In this document: positions 26,709 through 40,167 of the stretch, one piece after another
Layout of the letters: the number at the start of each line of letters is the position of its first letter
How positions within the stretch are numbered: the stretch's first letter is position 1
Assembly (NCBI RefSeq): GCF_000149955.1
Contig: NC_030989.1
Span: forward strand, 4,600,402 to 4,664,401
DNA: 64,000 nt
From: Fusarium oxysporum f. sp. lycopersici 4287
Lineage: Eukaryota > Ascomycota > Sordariomycetes > Hypocreales > Nectriaceae
Direction of reading: 5' to 3'
Notes under the pieces: generated by a model
Seen by the model: the letters and a program-made list of their open reading frames with translations, nothing else
What the model was told of the DNA's origin: nothing
The model's database searches: none
Made by a program: the position numbers and the translations under genes

Positions 26709-28105
26709 ATGGCTTCGTTTACTGCTAAAGAAGTGGCTGCTCACAACACTCGTGATGATTGTTGGACAATCATTAACGGAAAAGGTATGTTTTTTTGTTT
26801 TGGGGTTGAGAATTTTCTGACGGTTTAGTTTATGATGTTACGAAATACATTGAGGATCATCCTGGTGGTGCGGATGTCCTGATTGAAGTTGCTGGCAAGG
26901 ACTCAACGGTGGAGTTTGACAATGCAGGCCATTCTGAGGATGCTTTTGAGATTATGGAGGAGTATCTGATTGGAACGTACAGTGGTGCACCTGTACGAGG
27001 CGCCCCAAAAGCTGTGACGCTCAAAAAGGCGGCTCCAAAGGCTGTTGCTGAAAGTAGCTTCACTTCAACGGCACTCACAGCTACCGCTGCTATTTCTGTC
27101 GGCGCTGTTGCGCTTCAAGCATATCGATTGAACCCTGAGATGCTTAACTCATTACCCAAGCTCAAGACCAGTGGCTCAGGACCTGGTTTCCTTGAAGGCT
27201 TCTTGATTGCTTCAGCGCTCTTCACCGTCGCTGGGACAATCACCGCCAAGAAACTCTCTAAGCATCTTCACTTCGAAGAGGGCGGCTTTATGAGCTACGC
27301 TCCTCACAAGAAGATGCCCAAGGTCACAAAAGTCAACCCCCTCATTCAACGAGGCTGGCTCGACCCAACAGCATACCACGCTCTTCCTCTAACCGAGAAG
27401 GAATTAATCGCCCCCAACGTCTACCGTCTTGTCTTCAGCCTCCCAACACCCACAACAGTCCTCGGTCTCCCAACAGGCCAACATCTCGCCATCAAAGCTG
27501 AAATCGACGGCAAGACAGTGAATCGCTCATACACACCCATCTCCAACAACAACGATCTGGGCAAACTCGAGCTCGTCATCAAATGTTACCCCGACGGACT
27601 TTTGACAGGAAAATACCTTGCCAATCTCTCCCTCGGCGATGAAGTTTCCTTCCGCGGTCCCAAGGGCGCAATGCGCTACAAGAACGGTCTCTGCAAACGA
27701 ATAGGCATGCTGGCCGGCGGAACAGGAATAACGCCCATGTTCCAAATAATCCGCGCCATCTGCGAAGACGATCGCGACTTGACACAAGTAAGCCTCATCT
27801 ACGCGAACCGCTCAGAACAAGATATTCTTCTACGCAACGAACTCGAAACCTTTGCGCGTCGATACCCCCAGAATTTCCGCCTGTACTACGTTGTTGAAAA
27901 CGCACCAGAAAATTGGACTTTTGGCACGGGGTACGCTACACAAGAGCTCATGCAGGAAAAGTTCCCCGCGCCAGGCGCCGACTCGAAGATCATGCTGTGC
28001 GGACCGCCGGGGATGGTAAAGGCGGCAAAGACCTCGCTTGGCAACCTTGGCTTCGAGCAGCCCGGCGCTTCTGCCAAGATGAGCGATCACATCTTTTGCT
28101 TCTAG
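26709..28105 (+). CDS. Cytochrome b5 / NADH-cytochrome b5 reductase fusion
   Basis: Exon 1 starts at 26709 ([19 protein letters not shown]), intron 26785-26828, then one long exon. Residues 1-80 are a cytochrome b5 domain with the two heme histidines (EDHPGGADV and NAGHSEDAF). Two hydrophobic segments follow (about residues 105-125 and 145-165). The C-terminal 270 residues are a ferredoxin-reductase-like module: FAD motif RSYTPIS, pyrophosphate/NADH motif [10 protein letters not shown] and CGPPGMV. The usual fungal b5 reductase lacks the b5 domain, so this is a natural fusion delivering electrons from NADH through FAD to its own heme. Placement head-to-head with a P450 suggests that P450, or a desaturase or hydroxylase, as acceptor. 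Cellular site is probably the endoplasmic reticulum. Confidence 0.92.
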
Positions 28106-28366: not shown

Positions 28367-30094
28367 ATGGCGGACCGTAAAGAGACTCAGGCCTTTGATG
28401 GCTTGAGACACGATGACATCAGTGATGAAAGACCTGATAATGGGAGTACCATTGACGCGCAGAACTTTGCGTACAGTGAGGATCGAAAGATCGGTATTAC
28501 GGGCGCTGTGTTTTTGATTCTGAATAAGATGATTGGAACAGGAAGTAAGTTTTTCACTTTTCTGAGCTGACCACGCTGACTTTTAGTCTTTTCAACGCCG
28601 TCGAGTATCTTTGCAGCTACTGGCTCTGTCGGCATCTCTCTTATGCTATGGGTGATCGGCGGCTTTCTCACCTTCTGCGGTCTAAGCGTCTTTCTCGAAT
28701 TCGGCTTAGCTATCCCACGATCTGGTGGTGAGAAGAATTATCTTGAGCGCGTTTATCGCCGTCCTCGATATTTAGCAACTTGCGTTCTTGCATCGCAGAT
28801 GATTCTTCTTGGGTTTTCATCCGGTAACTCTCTTGCATTCGGACGATATATCCTATTTGCATCTGGACGAGAAACACCCGATGGCTGGGAAGCTCGCGGC
28901 ATCGCAGTAACATGCGTAACCTTTGCCGTCCTCATGCACAGCGTAACACCAAAGTGGGGTATCCGCCTCTTCAACGTCCTCGGCGTCTTCAAAGTCGTCA
29001 TTCTCCTCTTCATCGTCTTTTCAGGCTTTGCCGCCCTCGCAGGCCATCGCCGCGTGCCCAACCCCCACAACTTCGACAACGCCTTCAGGATCGAAGATGG
29101 CGACGGCTACGGCGGCGGTGGGGCATACGCTTACTCAAACGCCCTCCTCAATATCATATACAGCTACAAAGGCTGGGAGAATGCAAACTACGTTGTAAGC
29201 GAACTAAAACACCCCAAGAAAACTCTCGCCATCGCAGCGCCGATTGCGATCGGCGGTGTTACGATTCTGTACGTCCTCGCAAACGTAGCGTACTTTGCAG
29301 CGATTCCGAAATCAGACCTCGCCAAGTCCGAAGTCATCGTCGCCGGCCTCTTTTTCCGAAACATCTTTGGTGAGAGTGCGGCTGCGCGAAGTCTTCCTGC
29401 TTTTGTGGCGCTGAGTAATCTCGGAAATGTCCTTGCTGTTTCGTTTGCGCATGCGAGATTGAATCAGGAGTTGGCGAAGGAGGGAATGTTGCCGTTTAGT
29501 CGGTTCTGGGCGTCGAATAAGCCATTTAATGCACCAGCTTCTGCGGTAAGTTGTGTTCGTGCTTGGTTGAAGTGATGGGGCTGACGGTTTAGCTTTTTCT
29601 TCATTGGATTGTCACGGTTGTTGTTCTTCTCGCACCGCCTGCTGGACCAGCTTATAACTTTATCGTCAACCTGTAAGTCATCCTCATTCACGCTCCGTCA
29701 ACAAAGTTAACAGCTTAGGTACACATACCCCGGCTCATGGATCAACGGCTTCGTCACAGCAGGCTTGATATACCTGCACTACAAAAAGTCCGAGAACTGG
29801 TCATCACCGTGGCACACATATCTCCCCATCTCCATAATTTACCTCCTCGCCAACGTCTTCCTGGCCTTGGTACCCTTCATCCCACCCGATGGCGACTGGA
29901 ACGCGGATGGATACCCGTACTACGTGTTCCCAGTTGTTGGTGTTGGCGTTTTGATCCTTGGCGGCGTTTACTGGAGCTTCTGGACAAAGATACTTCCGAG
30001 GATTGGGGGATATAAGGTTGTTGCGGATAGGACGTTTGATGACTCTGGTGTTGAGACTGTTAGGTACCGAAAGGTTCCTGTCAAGAGGGACTAG
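28367..30094 (+). CDS. APC-family amino-acid permease (MUP1-like), intact
   Basis: Starts at 28367 (MADRKETQAFDGLRHDDISD). Introns lie near 28543-28586, 29546-29592 and 29672-29718, and the gene ends ...YRKVPVKRD. The protein has about 12 hydrophobic segments, with the family signatures NKMIGTGIFSTPSSI, GGEKNYLERVYRRP and ENANYVVSELKHPKKTL. It is the intact paralogue of the frameshifted permease at 1-1409, sharing segments such as FSRFWASNKPFNAP/FSRLWASNRPFNAP and NIAYFAAV/NVAYFAAI. It probably imports methionine or a related amino acid. It is convergent with the kinase gene at 30376 and may lie outside the polyol gene set, although an accessory uptake role cannot be excluded. Confidence 0.88.
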
Positions 30095-30375: not shown

Positions 30376-32216
30376 CTATAAGTTTTCTGCCATACCGCTA
30401 AGTATCTCGGAAAGTGCCCAGGCTCCCGGGTCAGGTACCTGCTGCTTACTAGCCTCACCAACATACAAAGCCCTTCCAAGTTTCGGTCTCAGATATCGCG
30501 TAGCCTCTGCCTTCTCTTTGGCCTTCACGACTCCAGCTTCAAAGCTCTTTGTCTTCACAAACTCATCCGAAAACGGCAAAAGAACATCCATCACGGTGCG
30601 GTCTCCCTCTCTTGCCGTCGTGCAAGTCTTGAGAGACTCGACAGCAACATGAAGCGCTTCAGCATAGATCTCAGCAGTTATTGCCTTGGTGACTTTCTGA
30701 CCTGAGAGTTGACGCTTGAGGGCGTTGTTGAGAGCTGTGAGGAGAATGCCAAAGATGGCACCTAGGGTTCCGCCCATGTCATCAACTGTGTCGGTGATTG
30801 CTTCGAGGAACGACACAACAGAGTCTGGGGCAGCATGTCCCTCGTCAATTTTTCGAATCACTGATTCGCACAATCCTTTCACTGCTTCACCACAATCACC
30901 ATCACCCATCATCATATCCCACTCAGTGAGCTTTGGCTCAGCTAGGATGGCTTTCTTACATGCTGATCGGATGCACCTCTCAAGTAATGAGGGATCCACT
31001 GAGTCATACTGCTTGGTGGCAGCAGCAGACTCGTTTCCATTTGCGTGACCATTTTGCTTTCCTTCGCTTCGAGACTCAAGCTTCTGTGACGGTCTGGCAA
31101 GGTTTGGCCATGAAACAGCTGTTGTAGGCCGGTCAAAAAGCTCGAGTAATGTCGCGGTCGTTGTCTTGCAAAGGCTTGCAGAAGCTGATAGATTGCAGAG
31201 CGAGATCGAGAAACCCGGTGCATTCAAAGAGGTCTCAAACGATCCTGATAGACACCTAACTGGCTGAATAAACCATGTTGAAGCAAGCTGTTGCTGAATC
31301 TCGTCCACTAACGCACCAAGCTCCAGGTTTGAAAGACCACCATAGTTATTGACCAGCAGTAAAACCTCATCGTCTTGAGTGAATTTGCAGAATCCTCGTT
31401 CTGGATCGCTGCTGTCACATAGAAGCTCCAAACAAGACTTTATAACTGTCTCAACTGTTGGGAAAGGAGAAACGAGTTGTTGGCCGGGTTCATTGTGAAC
31501 ACCGGCTCCGATGACGCAAATATCGTCGGCGACTCTCTGGTATTGACGACCCGGCACATGGCAGTGGTCAAGCGATGATCCGATTGAGACGGTGTTGTCA
31601 TTTACTGCTCGGCCTAGGTCCACACATTGTTCGAAAGACCAGTCCTCGGCGGCGGCAGCACAGAGAATTTTCATCGCTATTGCCCATATCAGTATAATGA
31701 GCCCCAGCTTTCTCTCATTGGGAGCTACATACTGAATACATGACCAGGCATGCCTCTTCTTCCCACTCGTTCCGATCTGCTTCTCCCAATAGAAACATCA
31801 TCAGTAGCTGGAAGAACCAGATAGTCTTCCCCGGATCCTGCAGCTTTTGCTTTTTCAGCAGCAAGACCAAAGTGAAGTCGATCCCCAGTGTAGTTCGTAA
31901 TGAGAAAGATGGTTCCCTTGGTAGATGGTGCCAGCTTCTTGGCAGCTAGGATCTGTTTGGTGCTTGGTGAAGCGAAGATGTCGCCACATGCTACTGCTGA
32001 GAGAAGGCCTTCACCGACGAACCCGCTCCAGGAGGGCTCATGGCCTGAACCACCGCCACTGATGATGGCGACTTTTGAGGGGTCGTGATGTAGATTAGCT
32101 ACAACACGTTCGGGCTCGTTTGAGATTAGATGGGGGTTTGCTGTCACAAGGGACCTTAGTGCTCGGGGTACCAAAGAGTTTGCAGCTGCTTCTGAGAAAT
32201 AGTGTTTTGTTGACAT
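30376..32216 (-). CDS. Dihydroxyacetone-kinase-family ketose kinase (DhaK-DhaL fusion)
   Basis: Starts at ATG 32214-32216 (MSTKHYFSEAAANSLVPRAL), intron 31677-31732, ends ...SEILSGMAENL. The N-terminal DhaK (substrate) domain has ISGGGSGHEPSWSGFVG, LITNYTGDRLHFGLA and SSLDHCHVPGR, the last with the histidine expected to hold the ketose covalently. The C-terminal DhaL (ATP) domain has MMMGDGDCGEAVKG and MGGTLGAIFGILL. At about 590 residues it matches the family. The nominal reaction is ATP-dependent phosphorylation of dihydroxyacetone. Its neighbours (RpiB-type isomerase, SDR, class II aldolase, regulator, transporter) instead suggest a catabolic kinase for erythrulose or a similar short ketose, as for DAK-type erythrulose kinases. 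It is divergent from the Zn2Cys6 regulator. Confidence 0.9.
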
Positions 32217-32775
32217 GATGAAGAGCAAAATCGCGGGAGGATTGATGGGAACATATCACCAATGTGATTGAATCATGATTAATTGTTATTTTAATCAAGT
32301 GCCTACATATATAAGTTTATCATCCATAGGTACCGCTTTAAGAAGCTCCAACCTCGTTACGAACCAAATTCCAGCCGGGTTACCTCTCCCGACTTTCCCT
32401 TAGAGTATTTCAGCGCCTAGATATTATCTGCAGGGTAACACATGGAAAAATGACCGCGAGACGCAACTTGTCCAGCTCGCAGACCAGCAAGGTTCCCCGC
32501 AGTTTGGAGCCAACCTAGCTTGGGGAAGCCAGAAACTTAGGACATCCACTCTACGTGATGAAAAGATTCAGGTAAACCTAGTATATTTTAATGAGCCTTT
32601 AGGCTAATTAATTTTGGCACCGTAGTTCAATATTCACAGGTTTTCTTCCTAGCTTGACTCAGGGCAGCTTTGGCTAAACACCGGCAATGGAGCTTCCCAT
32701 GTCGGCGAAATCGTATGCTGTCAGTCCTATTCTGCCAACCTTCGTCTCGCGTCACTCCATGCGACACTATCTCCA
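32217..32775. promoter_or_regulatory. Divergent promoter of kinase and Zn2Cys6 regulator
   Basis: 559 bases between start codons. It holds copy A of a small dispersed repeat (32551-32576 and flanks), so part of the spacer is likely old mobile-element sequence. No operator is assigned; control of the kinase by the adjacent regulator is inference. Confidence 0.4.
32551..32576 (+). repeat. Dispersed repeat family 2, copy A
   Basis: A 26-base core starting CTACGTGATGAAAAG. It aligns without gaps to 49793-49818 (five differences, all transitions) and to the minus strand of 50950-50975 (five differences). Similarity extends into the flanks (AGGACATCC / AGGACCTCT before; TTTAGGCTAATT / CTTAGACTAGTT after). 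Confidence 0.6.
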
Positions 32776-34664
32776 ATGGACCGAGATGAAGACGATCAAA
32801 CGCGGCTGAGGAAGAGACCTCGCAAGTCTCGCAGCCGAGGGTTGCGTACGAGAACTGGCTGGTTAGTGCATATCTCCTCATGTGTGATTGCATGATATGA
32901 TCATTGAGGTCTAATAGATACAGTTTGACGTGTCGCAAGCGGCACAAGAAATGCGATGGTGAGAGTGACCTTTCATGTTGCCTCCTACAATACCCGCTAA
33001 TGGGCTATTATTGACGCATGCCAGAGAGGCGTCCAGTCTGCGGACCCTGTACGATCAGATCTCGCGACTGTGTCTACCCCGAAACGCAGTCTTCGTTGAC
33101 AAGCATTGATGAGTCCGAAACACAATCAAGGGAGCAGTTATTCCTCGGTGATCAGGACTCTCCAGCAGCACTTGATCTACCAGATTCACACAGCAACCAC
33201 CTAGCCACTGACACTGGCCCCAACATACAGCCGTCCCTGTCCGCAAACGATGTCTCACTTCTCGGCGTGGCCCCCCAGCCACTAACTACCTCTACCTGGT
33301 CAGCAGACTCAGCCTTCTGGACTGCCGACTTTGCTTCGACGCGATGGCTTGACCTGCTCGCCAATGACGCTGCACAAGCAGATAGCGGCTTCTCGCTTGT
33401 GCCAACTCCAGCCTTGAGAGAAGGTGAAGAGAGACCTCCAGACATCGGAAGCCTTCAAGCACGTTTATCTCAAGTTGCCGAAGTTGAGCCTACAAGCTGG
33501 AAAGCTGGAGTGAGTCCGGCAACTTTGTCGCCGCATGAAGCTGTTCTGCTTCGTCACTTTGCAGAGAAGTGTGCGTTATGGCTGGACCTCTTCCATCCTC
33601 AGAGTTTGTTCTCTACATACGTTATCAGACTGGCACTGAAAGACCCAGGGCTTCTTCATGCCATTCTTGCTCTCGCTGCACGTCATCGCTCCAAGCTACC
33701 CAGTCCCAGCAACCATACCGTAACGGATAACGAGTCGATCCGACATTACTATGAGACACTTCACTACGTACAGGAAGCTCTAGCCTATACAAGCTACACC
33801 AAATCAGAAGAGCTTCTAGCCACTGCCATTGTTATCTCGTCGTACGAAATGCTCGATGAATCAGATGGGCGGGGAAACTGGCAGAGACACCTAAAGGGCG
33901 TCTTCTGGATACAGAGATCTCAAGACGTAAACGGAGGCTCTGGTGGCCTTCGCCAGGCTGTTTGGTGGGCTTGGCTCCGTCAGGACATCTGGGCTGCGTT
34001 CAGGGAAAAGAGACCCTGCCTTAGTTTCTGGGTTCCAGTTCAGGACCTCAGTGAGCTTGACCAGCATGACTTGGCAGAGAGAGCTATATATCTTCTCTCT
34101 CAGGCGGTGAATTACTATGCACATTCCCATGCTGCCGTATCCGGCTCGACAACGAATCGTCTAGCGCCAGTGGACTTGGGTCGTGCGAGAGTTGACATTT
34201 TGAACAAGATAGAAGAGCTCAAGTCTCACTTCGGCGAGCAATACCAACCCCTTCCATCACCCTCCAAAACCACTGACATCTTCAATAGAATTTGGATACA
34301 CCCACCAGAATTTGGGGCTGCGTTGCAGGCACTTGCATTTGCGCAAATATTGATAGCGCTTCATAGTCCAATACCGGCTGGATTTAATGGGTATCTAAGA
34401 ATGCAAAAGACACTCACGCAATCTGTAGACACCATCTGCGGGATAGCTATGGACTTGAAGGATGAGGCCTGTCAAATCGTATCAGCGCAGTGTCTTTACG
34501 GGGCGGGTCTTTGTTTGCAAGAAGCTGATAAGCGTGAAAAAGTTATTTCTTTGATGGAGGCTTGTGAGGCTAGAGTTAACTGGGTCCCTATGAAGATGTG
34601 GAGAGATGATTTGAGAACAGAGTGGTCCAAGGCAGATCTGGAAGGAAGCCAGGACGCCTTCTGA
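32776..34664 (+). CDS. Zn2Cys6 transcription factor
   Basis: Three exons: start at 32776 (MDRDEDDQTRLRKRPRKSRS), introns about 32863-32921 and 32957-33024. Splicing joins C-LTC-RKRHKKC across to DERRPVCGPC-TIRSRDC. This is a textbook CX2CX6CX6CX2CX6C binuclear cluster, reconstructed across two introns and so missed by simple ORF finding. A very basic stretch (RLRKRPRKSRSRGLRTR) precedes it. The remaining ~550 residues look like the fungal-specific regulatory domain (for example LSPHEAVLLRHFAEKCALWLDLFHP and HAILALAARHR). It is divergent from the ketose kinase and inside the putative polyol-catabolic set, so it is the likely pathway-specific activator (inference). It is convergent with the aldolase gene (67 bases). 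Confidence 0.92.
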
Positions 34665-34731
34665 GAACACAAGACTCAGCCAGTAAAGTCACCCTCATAA
34701 TTGATAATAATGAACTATGGTATAGCTTCTC

Positions 34732-35649
34732 TTAAGCCTTCCCTGTAGAACCGCAGACATCCATCTGCCACTCCGTCAGCTTCTGAGCTTTCTCTACACC
34801 TTCCTCCATCAGTGTCGTCAAGTTGAGCTTCGAGGCTTGTTCCTTGATGTGAATGAGGTAGTCATCCAAGACAAGCTTGTTCACATTGACCTTGGACACA
34901 CCGCCCTTGATGCAGGCCTTCATTATATCCTCTGGGAAATCGTTGGTCCCATGGAGGACAACTCTCACGCGCCCATTGACTCTTGATCGTATCATCTCAA
35001 GCCTGAAGACCTTGTTAGACTTGATGTAATCACTTAGCCGTTTTACTAACCGATCAAATTCTAGAACAGGACCACGCTTGCCATATTCTCCATGTACGTT
35101 ACCAAATGCAGGGGCAAGGAAATCAATCCCCGTCGCAATGAAATCCTCAACCTGCTCTGCAGTCGTCAAGGCCCCCTCCAAATCAGCTGTATCCGCGATT
35201 CCGTCTTCCCCTCCTTCAATTCTCCCCGGTTCAGCTTCAGTAGCAATTCCACGCACATGACAGTACGAAACCAACTCCTTGGTCTTGGACAGGTTCTCTT
35301 CCATCTCGTGATGGCTCATATCGACCATGATGCTATCAAAGGGGAGAGAATCAGCGGCATGTCGAATAATTGCTTCGTCCTGTGCATGATCTAAGTGGAT
35401 TGCGATGGGAACTGAAGCATTCCGCGCTGCGTGTGCTGCGGCGTGGATGAGGAGGCCAGATGAAAAGGTGATGGCCCAAGGGAAGACTTGGATGATAAGA
35501 GGACTACGTTTGACCTCGGCAGCTCGTACAAAAGCCAGAATGTGCTCTATGCTGTAAGCTATCGGTGCAACGACTCCGTAGCCTCCATCCTCAGCTGCCT
35601 TGAGGATCTGGCAGGTCTTGTTGTTTTGCGGTTTCCAGGTGGAAGTCAT
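34732..35649 (-). CDS. Class II (zinc) ketose-bisphosphate aldolase family protein
   Basis: Single exon, 305 residues, MTSTWKPQNNKTCQILKAAE to ...QMDVCGSTGKA. Active-site motifs are present in order: AIHLDHAQ (catalytic Asp and zinc His), TEAEPGRIEGGEDG, FLAPAFGNVHGEYG (zinc His), VVLHGTNDF (zinc His) and GGVSKVNVNK (phosphate/substrate loop). It is shorter than the glycolytic yeast-type class II enzyme (about 360) and closer to bacterial tagatose/fructose-bisphosphate aldolases of about 285-305 residues, so a pathway-specific substrate is likely. It is divergent from the RpiB-type isomerase over 432 bases. In the inferred pathway it could cleave or condense a ketose phosphate; the exact substrate cannot be read from sequence. 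Confidence 0.9.
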   Translation of the reverse strand: MTSTWKPQNNKTCQILKAAEDGGYGVVAPIAYSIEHILAFVRAAEVKRSPLIIQVFPWAITFSSGLLIHAAAHAARNASVPIAIHLDHAQDEAIIRHAADSLPFDSIMVDMSHHEMEENLSKTKELVSYCHVRGIATEAEPGRIEGGEDGIADTADLEGALTTAEQVEDFIATGIDFLAPAFGNVHGEYGKRGPVLEFDRLVKRLSDYIKSNKVFRLEMIRSRVNGRVRVVLHGTNDFPEDIMKACIKGGVSKVNVNKLVLDDYLIHIKEQASKLNLTTLMEEGVEKAQKLTEWQMDVCGSTGKA

Positions 35650-36081
35650 TTTTGCGATGGTTGGCTGCTAAATTAAAAGCAATCTCTGCTTCTATACCGA
35701 CTGAATGTATAAACAAGATCGTCTACTCGGTCAGGCTGTGCTTGATTCGAACGCCCATGGCACCCTGCCATTAATCCTTGCACTAACCTCCAAAAGTGTC
35801 TCCGCATATTCGCGCCTCGAGGTAATTCTGCAGCTGAGACTAACCCAACTCGAGCTAGCTTTACTCGTCTGAACCTTGTCGACTTTAGCAGCTTGGCCTC
35901 GAAGCGCAATACCTGCATTGCAGCTATGATTCGCTTCCGGGCGCGTCCGAAGGAAAAAGCATTGGAAGAGCATAAAGTACACAACAGAGGCAGAGACCAA
36001 ATTTATTTGGTTATCAATATTGAGCTTTGAGATTTGGATTAAGTACCAATAATTTCTTCTTTACTACGTTGCTGACATACA
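35650..36081. promoter_or_regulatory. Divergent promoter of aldolase and RpiB-type isomerase
   Basis: 432 bases between start codons. Shadow open frames on the minus strand are not supported. No specific operator identified; CGG half-sites are present but not in an obvious conserved pair. Confidence 0.4.
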
Positions 36082-36629
36082 ATGCCATCCGGACTTCGCA
36101 TAGTCATTGGCGGGGACGACGCCGGCTTCCCCTACAAGTTCATCATCGCCCAACAACTTCTCACTGACCCCCGTGTTTCGTCGGTCATCGACGCTGGTCC
36201 TTCATCAGAGGAGGACAAAACTGCATATTCGCACTTTGCCATCGCAGCTGCAGAGAAAGTGGCAAAGGGTGAAGCTGACAGAGCTTTGTTGATCTGCGGA
36301 ACTGGACTTGGTGTTGCCATCGCTGCCAACAAAGTGCGTGGTATCAGGGCTGTGACAGCACATGATAGCTTCTCTGTTGAGCGTTCGGTTTTGAGTAATA
36401 ATGCTCAGGTTTTGTGTTTGGGACAACGGGTTGTTGGGATTGAGCTAGCTAAGAGGCTGGTGAAGGAATGGCTGGGGTACCAATTTGATCCCGTACGTAC
36501 ATCTATGCTGTTTTTCCAGCGGGTGCATTGTTAACTCTGTTCTAGAACTCATCATCTGCTGCCAAGGTCAAGATCATTGAGGATTACGACAGTCAACAAC
36601 TTATAACAGCGCCAATAGCAGCTGCATAG
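36082..36629 (+). CDS. RpiB/LacAB-family sugar-phosphate isomerase
   Basis: Exon 1 36082-36492, intron 36493-36545, exon 2 to the TAG at 36627-36629; about 164 residues. It has the RpiB fold landmarks: [13 protein letters not shown] at the N-terminus (phosphate/ring-opening loop), [22 protein letters not shown] (the GTG..G.aN loop) and [19 protein letters not shown]. Fungi usually carry RpiA for ribose-5-phosphate, and RpiB-type enzymes in fungi mostly belong to catabolic gene sets. One known role is interconversion of erythrulose-4-phosphate and erythrose-4-phosphate. With a DAK-type kinase and SDR nearby, that activity is the best guess here. The family's active-site cysteine seems present in LLICGTG. 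Confidence 0.9.
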
Positions 36630-37095
36630 GATTGGGAGATTGAAGTAGACACCAAAAAAATGAGTTTTATTAATCTCTAATAACGGACTTCTACAACTTT
36701 CTTCCACTTCTCGGTTCTTAGTAAAAAGTCAGATGAAGTGTATGATATCTTGTATGCCTTGGAAGCTTTTACATAAAGTTTCATGTCATTATGTTTTCGC
36801 TTATGAAGTTTGTGTAAACACTATCGATATCTCCATCCAGTTGTGGGGGACGAAGCAGAAAGAGCGCCTTATTTCCGAAACACCATAAGGGAATATAAAC
36901 ATTTGCCTTTATATAATCTATGATATACGTTTAACATCCTTTGTTGGCATTTCAGCGGTATTCAAACGAGTAGTGAGAAGGCAAGCAGTCTGTTACCAGT
37001 CCCAGCTGCAAAGAATGAAGTACAACATTGAGCTGCTTTCATGATACAATTAAATCTATTGAAGATGGGTAACTATCTATAGAAAAGATTTTCCA
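36630..37095. other. Intergenic between convergent genes
   Basis: About 465 AT-rich bases between the 3' ends of the isomerase and SDR genes. No gene or repeat recognised. Confidence 0.55.
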
Positions 37096-38072
37096 TTACC
37101 AAGCGCCAACAATACCAGCAATCGGGATATCAATTCCCGTGGTGTAAGTCGCCGTCTCACTCAGCAGGTATACATATGCACCTCCAAGCTCCTGCGGTAG
37201 CGCCAGGCGAGGCATGCCACCGTAGTACTTCATCTTAGTATCCCAGTCAGGCGCCGTCTCAACATAATATGTCAGAGCAGTTTTGACGAAACCAGGTGAA
37301 ATGCTGTTCACTCGAATGCCATACTGCGACCATTCCATCGCAAGTGTATGCGTCATGTTTCGCACTGCACCCTTTGTTGCGCCGTATGGGGCTGATGGGG
37401 CAGCCTATCCAAAGTTAGCGGGGAGAAGACTTGCCAGAAAGTTTGGGAGGATACTGACTCTGTTTGGGCGGTAAGATGTCATACTGGCTGTAAACACAAT
37501 GCTGCCCTTGCAGCCAAGCATGATGAATGCGCGCGCAGCAGCCGTTGCACAATTCCAGGCCCCAAATACGTTTAATCGGAATAGCTTCTCAACTTGCTCA
37601 GCTGCAAAGTCCAAGGCCGGTTGATGCTTGGTGGCACCAGCGTTGGCAACCATACCATCGAAACGGCCCTTTGCAGCGATGATAGCATCTATGGCAGAAG
37701 TCACACTCTCTTCATTGGTAACATCGCATTTTTGGAAACCTAATCTTCCCGGAAAGCGTTTGAGTAGAGTTTCAAAGGGTTCTGAAGGTTCAGTAACGTC
37801 GAGGCTGTAGACGAAAGCAGCGTCGTTTACAAGGCAGACTTCGGCGATGCCCAGGCCAATGCCCTGATTGGCGCCAGTGACTTTTATTGTTAGCATCGAT
37901 CAATTTTGCGTAATTTAGTGACTCAAAATTACATACTGGCAATAACCTTGTCTTGTAGGGTGACCTTGTAGTCATGGTTGGGTCCGGGCATAGTGCTTAG
38001 AGGCCCATGTCCATTGGCGGCGCCATTTGTACTGTTAGAGGTACCGTTTGTGTTTTGAGGTCCACTCGTCAT
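37096..38072 (-). CDS. Short-chain dehydrogenase/reductase (polyol/ketose type)
   Basis: Starts at ATG 38070-38072 (MTSGPQNTNGTSNSTNGAAN), introns 37881-37936 and 37405-37458, ends ...GIDIPIAGIVGAW. Classical SDR: ITGANQGIGLGIAE dinucleotide loop (created by splicing), NAGATKH, FTASMTS (catalytic Ser) and YGATKGA (Tyr/Lys). The C-terminal SISPGFVKTALT and TGIDIPIAG match sorbose/xylulose-reductase-like SDRs. It probably oxidises a polyol to a ketose (or the reverse) with NAD(P), supplying the kinase substrate. The N-terminal 30 residues are Asn/Gly-rich and probably disordered. It is divergent from the MFS transporter. Confidence 0.9.
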
Positions 38073-38654
38073 TGTGTTATGGATTTAATTTTAAGAAAGA
38101 ATGTTTGAGGGAATAGGTAAGTGAACTGATGTAAAAGAAGAGAGACAGTTATTCAAAAAGTCAAGTAAAGAAATCTTAAATATTGTCCTCAAGGCGGCTG
38201 CCCACCAAATTGCTGCGCGAAACAAATCATGCCACAATAAGCCAAGGAACTTAACATCGCCGCCAAGGACGTGACATCCTGGTCATTGTACTCCGTCTCG
38301 CGACCTCAATGAACCCCAAGCCGCGGTTTAGTTACCCCAATAGAGTCGCCCCTGGCGTTCAGCTCGGGTAGGGGCAGAAACTAAATTAGTCTTGGCGAAA
38401 ATCTGGGGTCTCCACGATTCTAGAACAGCTGATTCCTGAACTTGGAGCTAAGGGAAAACCTCTCTCGTTCGAAAACCTGACAATCTCCAAGATACGACGT
38501 GAGACTGTGTAGCAAGAACTATGACATCTGTTTTATTTAAGTATCAGACATATCTTCCACCTCAATTGCTTCATTGCTATCACAATCAGTCAATCCTCAA
38601 TTCTTCATTATCGGTCTTCCAAACGCGTCAACAATCCATCCCTTGCCCCGCATC
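38073..38654. promoter_or_regulatory. Divergent promoter of SDR and MFS genes
   Basis: 582 bases. It contains a CreA-type consensus (SYGGRG) as CTGGGG at 38403-38408 on the plus strand, plus several other G/C runs (38335-38375), compatible with carbon-catabolite repression of a sugar or polyol pathway. Site assignment is tentative because the consensus is short. Confidence 0.35.
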
Positions 38655-40167
38655 ATGGACAAGGTAGACAAACAGTCGTTCGAGCACGATGACAACATCA
38701 TTGATCCTAAGGAAGAGTCCATGGCGCATGATGAATATGTACCCGGAACCGAAGAAGAGAAGAAGCTCGTTCGCAAGATCGACCTCTTCATTCTCCCCAT
38801 GATGTGGGTCATGTACCTCCTTTCCTACATGGACAGAACCAAGTCAGTATACCCCCTTTCACATACGCGTTAGAGTCTGGCTAAGACTATACAGTATCGG
38901 AAATGCCAAAATCGCCGGAATGGACAAAGATCTTAACCTCGATTCCAACAAATACTCCATCGTCCTCGTTGTCTTCTTCGTTGGCTATGTCGTCTTCGAA
39001 GTTCCCTCCAACATGATCCTCACACGAACCCGTCCAAGTCGATATCTTCCCGGAATCATGTTTGTCTGGGCGGCGTCACAATTGCAATGGCTTTCACGCG
39101 CACCTATGAACATATGATCGGCTTTAGAATTCTCATGGGCGTTCTCGAGTCCGGATTTGCTCCTGGTGTTCTTCTGCTTCTCTCTTCTTGGTACAAGAGT
39201 GAAGAGCAGAGTAAGCGATTTGCCGTGTACATCTCCGCTGCCATCCTCTCCGGTGCATTCGGTGGTCTCTTACTAGCTCCATCACCAGTGGCCTAGACGG
39301 CGCACCCGGCAAGGCTGGCTGGAGATGATTGTTTATTGTTGAAGGTGCTGCCACTATGGGAGTGGCAGTGATTGCATACTTTATCCTTCCTGACTTTCCA
39401 TCAAACACTTCGAGGCTCAAGTTCAGCCAGGCAGAGATTGATCTTGCCATTCAAAGACTGCAACACAACAGACCACAGGTCCATACTGAGGATGAAGCGA
39501 AACTAGGTCATTGGAAGGCTTTCAAACTCAGCATGACCAACTGGCGCACCTGGTTCTTTGTTGTTGGTTATATGGTAAGTTGTCGATCACCCTAGTGATG
39601 TTGAAGGCTTGGCTGACTAACAAACCTCTTTAGGCGATCATGGGCTCTTCAACCCTCTCCTACTTCTACCCCACTCTCGTCAAACGTCTCGGTTACGAAT
39701 CCACGACAGCTCAGTACATGACCATACCCATCTTTGGCGTTGCATTTGTGGTCACCGCTCTCACAGGCTACTTCGTTGACAAGAAGAGTCAATGGCGAGG
39801 CGTTATACTATGCGCCTGGATGAGTATCGCCATGTTGTGTGCCATCATCATCTGCGTCGTCTACAACTTCAAAGCACGCTACGCTCTCCTCGTTATCATG
39901 GCTGCAGCGCTTTAGGCTTCAAATGGCTTATCATTATCTTACGCCTCAACTACCTTTGGCTCCATGCCCAACGAGACTCGAGCCATTTCTCTGGCGTTTA
40001 TCAACGCTATGGGCAACCTGGCCCAGATATATAGAGCCTACTTGTTCCCAGCATCAGAGAAGCCTAAGTATCTCAAGGGATTTGGCGTCATCAGCGGGCT
40101 ATGCTTCACCGGAGCTGTATCATATGTTCTCTTGCATGTCTTTCTCAAAGGCAAGAAACGGGCTTGA
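38655..40167 (+). pseudogene. DAL5/allantoate-permease-type MFS transporter, broken
   Basis: The frame opens at 38655 (MDKVDKQSFEHDDNIIDPKE), and MYLLSYMDRTNIGNAKIAGM spans an intron at about 38842-38893. The homology then continues through four lesions. First, one G is missing in the GGG at 39068-39070 (expected FVWGGVTIAMAF). Second, about one base is lost near 39265-39280 (GGLL.../SITSGLDG). Third, there is a TGA at 39326-39328 in WR*LFIVEG where the family has Trp. Fourth, there is a TAG at 39913-39915 in AAAL*ASNGLSLSYASTTFGSMPNETRA. A second intron lies at about 39575-39633. Once restored by eye it shows 12 helices of the anion:cation symporter type. It sits in the polyol gene set as the expected importer, so its loss matters for pathway function. 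Assembly error could explain single lesions but hardly all four. Confidence 0.85.

Follow-up and report, generated by a model that had tools for sequence, protein, structure and literature searches.

The 64,000-nucleotide window of Fusarium oxysporum f. sp. lycopersici 4287 analysed in the present study (C4:4600402-4664401, C4 being one of the 71 contigs of the 61.2-Mb genome searched) carries a conserved catabolic gene cluster with its own regulator gene, which is a variant of the erythritol cluster of the yeast Yarrowia lipolytica and of the bacterial loci in which a DAK-type kinase accompanies an RpiB-type isomerase. Its likely role is to supply central metabolism with carbon from a four-carbon sugar or sugar alcohol. 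The more specific proposal, that the genes form a regulated cluster for tetrulose/tetritol catabolism in which the aldolase removes erythrose-4-phosphate, was judged to be evenly poised between right and wrong. An initial annotation, made from the letters of the sequence, had described six gene families arranged as three divergent pairs; the families, their order and their strands were borne out by the gene models and Pfam, and the promoter sizes that it gave (559, 432, and 582 bases) were matched exactly by the spliced models. The features, in window positions, are as follows:

30376..32216, minus strand: DAK-type (Dak1+Dak2) kinase, 594 amino acids (aa); exons 32216-31733 and 31676-30376; contains SGGGSGHEPSWSGF, a variant of the Dak1 motif
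32217..32775: divergent promoter region between kinase and regulator, 559 bases
32776..34664, plus strand: Zn2Cys6 regulator with Fungal_trans_2 domain, 586 aa; exons 32776-32861, 32924-32958, and 33025-34664
34732..35649, minus strand: class II (Zn-type) aldolase, PF01116, 289 aa; exons 35649-35051 and 35002-34732; variant loop HGTND / NVNK
35650..36081: divergent promoter region between aldolase and RpiB, 432 bases
36082..36629, plus strand: RpiB-type isomerase, 164 aa; exons 36082-36492 and 36546-36629; the sole genomic copy found
37096..38072, minus strand: short-chain dehydrogenase (SDR), 288 aa; exons 38072-37937, 37880-37459, and 37404-37096; YGATK
38073..38654: divergent promoter region between SDR and transporter, 582 bases
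38655..40167, plus strand: major facilitator superfamily (MFS) transporter gene, apparently broken, with two reading-frame changes and two in-frame stops

Splicing of GT-AG introns gave intact proteins for five of the six genes (kinase, regulator, aldolase, RpiB, and SDR). The Pfam domains of the window proteins were Dak1+Dak2, Fungal_trans_2, F_bP_aldolase, LacAB_rpiB, and adh_short. The spliced regulator contained the Zn2Cys6 cysteine pattern CLTCRKRHKKCDERRPVCGPCTIRSRDC, and the best solved match of the SDR was 1h5q, an NADP-dependent mannitol dehydrogenase (E 3e-35).

The assignment of the cluster to the catabolism of a short ketose or polyol, as first proposed, was supported by the DAK-linked clade of its RpiB protein and by co-location in relatives. 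RpiB was the only LacAB_rpiB match in the genome and was 100% identical to a listed protein cluster of F. oxysporum f. sp. lycopersici 4287. When the flanks (up to 8 kb) of the best 80 of 341 bacterial relatives were fetched, a DAK kinase was present in 75, a triose-phosphate isomerase (TIM) in 62, an SDR in 45, and a class II aldolase in 2; judged by genus name, 77 of the 80 are presumably actinobacterial. As a control, all RpiBs in 19 of these genomes were collected (51 matches, giving 30 loci with flanks of about 1.5 kb, 29 of which were aligned). A DAK kinase adjoined all 13 of the RpiBs that were 64–73% identical to the fungal protein and none of the 16 that were 26–39% identical, although 12 of the 13 DAK-linked genes were already in the set of 80 relatives and the control is thus not independent. 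A tree was built from 28 fungal and 27 bacterial sequences together with 16 from housekeeping RpiBs, its bootstrap not fully settled. It joined the fungal and the DAK-linked bacterial groups at 100/99, and the fungi formed a single group at only 64/84. On these alignments, the fungal RpiB belongs to a clade sited beside DAK kinases, and membership in this clade suggests conversion of D-erythrulose-4-phosphate into erythrose-4-phosphate. The named isomerases of DAK-RpiB sets are described as converting D-erythrulose-4-phosphate to D-erythrose-4-phosphate (PMC9835291, PMC10733421). A housekeeping ribose isomerase was considered for the window gene and disfavoured by the control and the tree, despite its passing general RpiB models. 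Among the 120 listed RpiB rows, 12 carry the name “D-erythrulose-4-phosphate isomerase”, and most other named rows carry ribose 5-phosphate isomerase. Two side observations concern the relatives. One RpiB locus (L102), titled Vibrio cholerae, stands amid mostly actinobacterial matches and is suspected to be a mislabelled or contaminated record; Fusarium decemcellulare has two RpiB proteins, FDECE_13118 (P0181) and FDECE_9320 (P0191), one of them two numbers away from a DAK kinase.

Conserved co-location in relatives was the point on which the initial annotation had chiefly made its proposal depend, and such co-location was found for the kinase, the aldolase, and RpiB. It was read from the locus numbers and contig data in the names of listed homologues, in place of a synteny scan. 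The lists comprised the best 120 rows each, clustered at 90% identity, and a missing partner in them is no proof of absence; 85 of the 120 aldolase rows, 58 of the 120 RpiB rows, and 116 of the 120 kinase rows entered the tally, those left out being mostly unnamed, together with many near-identical aldolases of the F. oxysporum complex. A contig was counted as shared when the organism and the printed longest-contig size were the same, which implies no adjacency on a long contig. In this sense, 10 organisms had the kinase, aldolase, and RpiB on one contig, and further organisms shared a contig for kinase and aldolase (21), for RpiB and kinase (15), or for aldolase and RpiB (4). Relative to the organisms present in both lists, a contig was shared in 31 of 39 for aldolase and kinase, 14 of 19 for aldolase and RpiB, and 25 of 31 for RpiB and kinase; these counts include Fusarium solani-melongenae, Orbilia ellipsospora, and Diaporthe batatas, in which the partners are distant, and Neoarthrinium moseri was entered as non-sharing for the aldolase though its locus numbers adjoin. 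Distances in locus numbers, read by eye on the assumption that the Anthostomella and Dothideomycetidae sp. series count in tens, were at most 5 in 11 of 12 kinase-aldolase pairs and at most 3 in 7 of 10 RpiB-kinase pairs, and the numbers of RpiB and the aldolase adjoined in all 3 pairs. The numbers of F. anthophilum (kinase 6516, aldolase 6518, and RpiB 6519, with 6517 not seen) fit the order in the window. We take the organisms sharing contigs to include Sordariomycetes and Leotiomycetes (Tricladium, Lachnellula), with Dothideomycetes also for RpiB and kinase. No description of a fungal kinase-aldolase-RpiB cluster was found in the literature as covered by titles and abstract openings, most subscription papers lying outside this coverage, and the accessible part of PMC11210129 contained nothing on such a cluster.

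The Y. lipolytica erythritol cluster consists of EUF1, EYK1, EYI1/EYL1, EYI2/EYL2, and EYD1; its erythrulose kinase is described as a dihydroxyacetone kinase homologue, and a divergent promoter of 438 bases is reported in the cluster (PMC5992420, PMC9835291). Compared by family and description, both clusters possess a DAK-type kinase, an RpiB-type isomerase, a dehydrogenase, and a transcription factor. They differ in three respects: the TIM-like EYI2/EYL2 of Yarrowia is missing from the window cluster, the class II aldolase of the window is an addition, and the divergent partners are kinase/regulator and aldolase/RpiB in the window against kinase/isomerase in Yarrowia. The aldolase had been singled out as the element that sets the Fusarium cluster apart; it is indeed extra relative to the Yarrowia cluster but not peculiar to this locus, given the contig shared with a DAK kinase in the 31 of 39 organisms mentioned above. 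In the actinobacterial DAK-RpiB(-TIM) loci, an RpiB of the window's clade adjoins a DAK kinase, as in Fusarium; TIM was found in 62 and a class II aldolase in 2 of the best 80 of 341, whereas the window has the aldolase and lacks TIM, and the bacterial kinases are nearer to the kinase on contig C10 than to that of the window. Loci of the DerK/LerK-DerI-LerI type are reportedly known from work on tetritols in Mycobacterium smegmatis.

No TIM gene was present in the cluster, and a single TIM-family match was found genome-wide, on contig C5. In Yarrowia, the TIM-like isomerase converts L-erythrulose-1-phosphate to D-erythrulose-4-phosphate (PMC9835291). Since the only TIM match lies elsewhere, this L-erythrulose step seems absent from Fusarium, and the kinase must then deliver D-erythrulose-4-phosphate directly, unless another family carries out the conversion; its substrate would accordingly be D-erythrulose obtained from D-threitol, or from erythritol through an SDR acting on the fitting side. 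The following route is proposed, in which the substrate, its stereochemistry, and every reaction are predictions, the aldolase step most of all. D-Erythrulose would first be formed by the SDR through oxidation of a tetritol, either D-threitol or erythritol attacked on the D-erythrulose side. Phosphorylation by the DAK kinase would give D-erythrulose-4-phosphate, which the RpiB-type enzyme would isomerize to D-erythrose-4-phosphate. The class II aldolase would then condense dihydroxyacetone phosphate (DHAP) with erythrose-4-phosphate to sedoheptulose-1,7-bisphosphate, transketolase would draw the remaining erythrose-4-phosphate into the pentose phosphate pathway, and the Zn2Cys6 protein would act as the pathway regulator.

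The aldolase falls into the class II family (Pfam F_bP_aldolase, 268 bits against a cut-off of 25.5); its 305-aa open reading frame (ORF) keeps a 48-base intron, and most listed homologues are 286–297 aa long. Three of its histidines (88, 186, and 233 in the numbering of the ORF) face 1gvf histidines that we take to be metal ligands. T235, N236, N255, N257, and K258 were invariant in 20 aligned fungal aldolases, and the loop residues presumably line the DHAP phosphate site. Compared with 1gvf, the HGTND loop stands opposite HGASD and N257 opposite A, and K258 stands opposite T if the alignment is left ungapped, the HMMER alignment placing a three-residue gap there. The closest solved protein was 3pm6 (E 2.5e-111 over 284 profile positions), which we take to be from Coccidioides; it belongs to the same aldolase family, was named by its depositor a putative fructose-bisphosphate aldolase, and carries HGADP / NVNR in place of the HGTND / NVNK of the Fusarium family. 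HGTND and N[VI]NK were present in all three genome aldolases of this family (window, contig C13, and C4:4171063), and PF01116 genes occur elsewhere in the genome as well, one of them on C7. The third family member, C4:4171063-4171884 (L015), lies about 460 kb from the window cluster, and no cluster partner was recognised beside it among ORFs of at least 110 aa, inspected without a hidden Markov model search. With respect to a bacterial origin, tblastn with the fungal alignment over genome contigs found no relatives of the aldolase; the class II F_bP aldolases near 2 of the 80 bacterial DAK-RpiB-TIM loci are at L097:12395 and L112:12920, and the loop of the former is HGGSA.

The condensation of erythrose-4-phosphate with DHAP to sedoheptulose-1,7-bisphosphate is put forward tentatively, as somewhat less than an even chance. 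It seems the best fit because it uses the product of RpiB, because of the Brucella Fba route, and because an aldolase and a transketolase are paired on C13. In Brucella, Fba is reported to serve one of two routes for erythritol-derived erythrose-4-phosphate, and sedoheptulose-1,7-bisphosphate is on the published map (PMC11508834); there, the cell's own Fba is involved, whereas the window gene is a clustered, sequence-divergent paralogue whose reaction is only proposed. The same set of genes, with a kinase, a DHAP-type aldolase, and an isomerase of the DerI clade co-located, and with a HGTND/NVNK loop invariant in the 20 fungal sequences, could also be read as an erythrulose-1-phosphate route, in which the kinase makes erythrulose-1-phosphate, the aldolase cleaves this phosphate into DHAP and formaldehyde, or fixes formaldehyde in reverse, and RpiB leads to erythrose-4-phosphate. 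Erythrulose-1-phosphate synthase is a side activity of DHAP aldolases, and its natural co-occurrence with isomerases of this kind has been called worth study, but the class II FbaA failed as the synthase in vivo (PMC10733421). Moreover, the TIM-like L-erythrulose-1-phosphate isomerase was not found, the genome having one TIM gene, and no formaldehyde-producing enzyme was recognised in the cluster, so this route appears very unlikely. Still more doubtful, and little short of discounted by us, is the bolder form of this idea, that the clustered aldolase is a dedicated tetrulose-phosphate enzyme and no fructose-bisphosphate aldolase. Together with the kinase and the DerI-type isomerase, it would give filamentous fungi a natural erythrulose-monophosphate route by which DHAP and a one-carbon unit are connected with erythrose-4-phosphate.

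A paralogous cluster of about 10.5 kb was found within C13:148000-163400 (L037, L016), with the following genes:

minus strand: MFS paralogue
plus strand: SDR paralogue, 68% identical over the exon searched; one 300-aa ORF
minus strand: regulator paralogue, 37% identical over 360 aa (E 9e-71)
minus strand: transketolase gene, between regulator and aldolase
plus strand: aldolase paralogue
plus strand: transketolase-like fragment, beyond the aldolase

For comparison, the regulator on C10 was 24% identical to that of the window (E 6e-25). Genome-wide Dak1 and LacAB_rpiB searches placed no DAK kinase and no RpiB on C13. The joint recurrence of four of the six families on C13 is argued to make them one functional set. 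Transketolase uses erythrose-4-phosphate; bacteria also have an apulose-4-phosphate transketolase. The transketolase of the C13 copy, together with the variant Dak1 motif of the kinase and the position of the aldolase outside curated families, would also suit another short ketose, such as a C5 ketose or the branched plant-wall apulose/apiose, its phosphate being split by way of the kinase, the aldolase, and the transketolase of the C13 copy. This alternative was considered distinctly improbable, since the clade of RpiB argues for a phosphate of four carbons and no apiose-specific gene was recognised. A literature search for apulose listed 20 of 37 papers, none of which mentions it, and this weighs neither for nor against the alternative.

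A number of results weigh against the assignment of the window cluster to tetrulose/tetritol catabolism. After splicing, the kinase scores above the cut-off of the NCBIfam glycerone kinase equivalog (587.1 against 574.95 bits), a comparison that covers the window kinase alone. Of 72 DAK kinases beside bacterial RpiBs, 70 had the C10 kinase as their best Fusarium match and 2 had the window kinase. Taken together, the kinase scores and motif give no independent support from the kinase for a tetrulose substrate. RpiB passes both RPI_actino (195.8 bits, cut-off 168.2) and the general RpiB model PRK05571 (149.9 bits, cut-off 135) and is below the cut-off of the NCBIfam rhizobial DerI model (155.8 against 240 bits). 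The spliced aldolase remained below the cut-off in all 20 of its NCBIfam matches, the nearest curated model being TIGR00167 (175.7 against 215.6), and in a passage of PMC11508834 the activity of Brucella Fba is worded as that of a sedoheptulose-1,7-bisphosphate phosphatase, not as a condensation. No shared contig was seen in 8 of 39 organisms for aldolase and kinase, 5 of 19 for aldolase and RpiB, and 6 of 31 for RpiB and kinase; the partners were distant in F. solani-melongenae (182 numbers), O. ellipsospora (29), and D. batatas (20), and were on different contigs in Mollisiaceae sp. Finally, no CGG/CCG spacing of a Zn2Cys6 site was common to all three divergent promoters.

The passing scores of the kinase and of RpiB would fit a cluster that served dihydroxyacetone or glycerol metabolism, with the kinase acting on dihydroxyacetone, the aldolase on a ketose bisphosphate, and RpiB as a ribose-5-phosphate isomerase; the tetrulose assignment would then be wrong. 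The genome holds three other Dak1 loci and other PF01116 genes, including that on C7, RpiB groups apart from the housekeeping RpiBs, the aldolase is below every fructose-bisphosphate aldolase cut-off, and incidental clustering leaves the conservation unexplained, so a role of this kind was considered unlikely.

Further details of the kinase are as follows. It was 99% identical to a listed protein cluster of F. oxysporum f. sp. narcissi, the closest among the matches listed. The SGGGSGHEPxW motif has W in the window kinase, F in the C5 and C9 kinases, and H in the C10 kinase; WS occupies the Dak1 motif position in 71 of the 120 listed homologues, 43 of the 120 being outside the search pattern. 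The mean summed bits of the RpiB-linked bacterial kinases were 208 for C10, 173 for C5, 166 for the window kinase (third of four), and 150 for C9, where the C5 and C10 kinases may be favoured, each having entered as several ORF pieces whose bits were added. The idea that the bacterial RpiB-linked kinases have their direct counterpart in the window kinase was rejected, C10 being best in 70 of 72. At the C10 locus (C10:1884500-1894400, L017), the Dak1 kinase is adjoined by a Sugar_tr-type MFS gene and a Zn2Cys6-like regulator, and an SDR 36% identical to the window SDR is located about 6 kb away.

The sixth member of the cluster had been annotated as an MFS transporter, and an intact gene for it was not confirmed. 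When tblastn was performed with pieces of the C13 paralogue, a reference whose own integrity is uncertain, the window MFS gene needed frames +1, +3, and +2 in succession with no intron room between them, and two in-frame stops stood where the paralogue carries tryptophan. Judged by its frames, the gene appears to be broken here; with a pair of stops and a pair of frame changes in a single gene next to five clean ones, decay is likelier than a sequencing fault. The uptake of a polyol by this protein, also part of the initial annotation, is weakened both by the broken gene and by the TIGR00893 score of the paralogue: a 246-aa piece of the C13 MFS paralogue had TIGR00893 (2A0114) as its best model with 140.6 bits, below the cut-off of 395. 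We take TIGR00893 to denote the anion:cation symporter type, which the C13 piece suggests for an otherwise uncertain transporter; neither the window gene nor the C13 piece gave an intact transporter above the cut-off of that family. A 91-aa fragment of the window MFS gene points the other way, with a weak sugar porter match (28.6 bits against 237.8), and one fragment of the gene had a Pfam Sugar_tr match just below the cut-off (20.1 against 22.3 bits). With the cluster's transporter apparently broken, this strain would need another carrier for uptake. The same damage could mean that the entire cluster is in decay and has lost its function in strain 4287, but the intact frames of the other five genes make this a very improbable explanation.

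A regulator site shared across the promoters was sought and dropped: besides the lack of a common CGG/CCG spacing, only one 8-mer was common to the three promoters (200 mononucleotide shuffles gave a mean of 0.185 and a maximum of 4). A CCGCGG element was observed once each in the SDR/MFS divergent promoters of the window (38073-38654) and of C13 (L037:1716-2638). Two ORFs on the 5′ side of the cluster were taken as flanking genes, one for a NAD/FAD-binding reductase (26909-28105) and one for an AA_permease_2 amino-acid permease (28643-29575, 223 bits). No tandem repeats and no tRNAs were found, and no GC shift, as a sign of recent transfer, was seen on inspection by eye.

If the proposed assignment is right, tetritol catabolism, so far attributed to one yeast and certain bacteria, would also occur in a wide range of filamentous fungi, and its last step would differ there, a dedicated aldolase handling erythrose-4-phosphate. 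A conserved fungal aldolase family with one solved, putatively named relative (3pm6) would thereby gain a testable substrate. The locus and its relatives also provide a concrete case in which to test the natural co-occurrence of erythrulose-phosphate aldolases with isomerases of this kind, which PMC10733421 describes as worth study.

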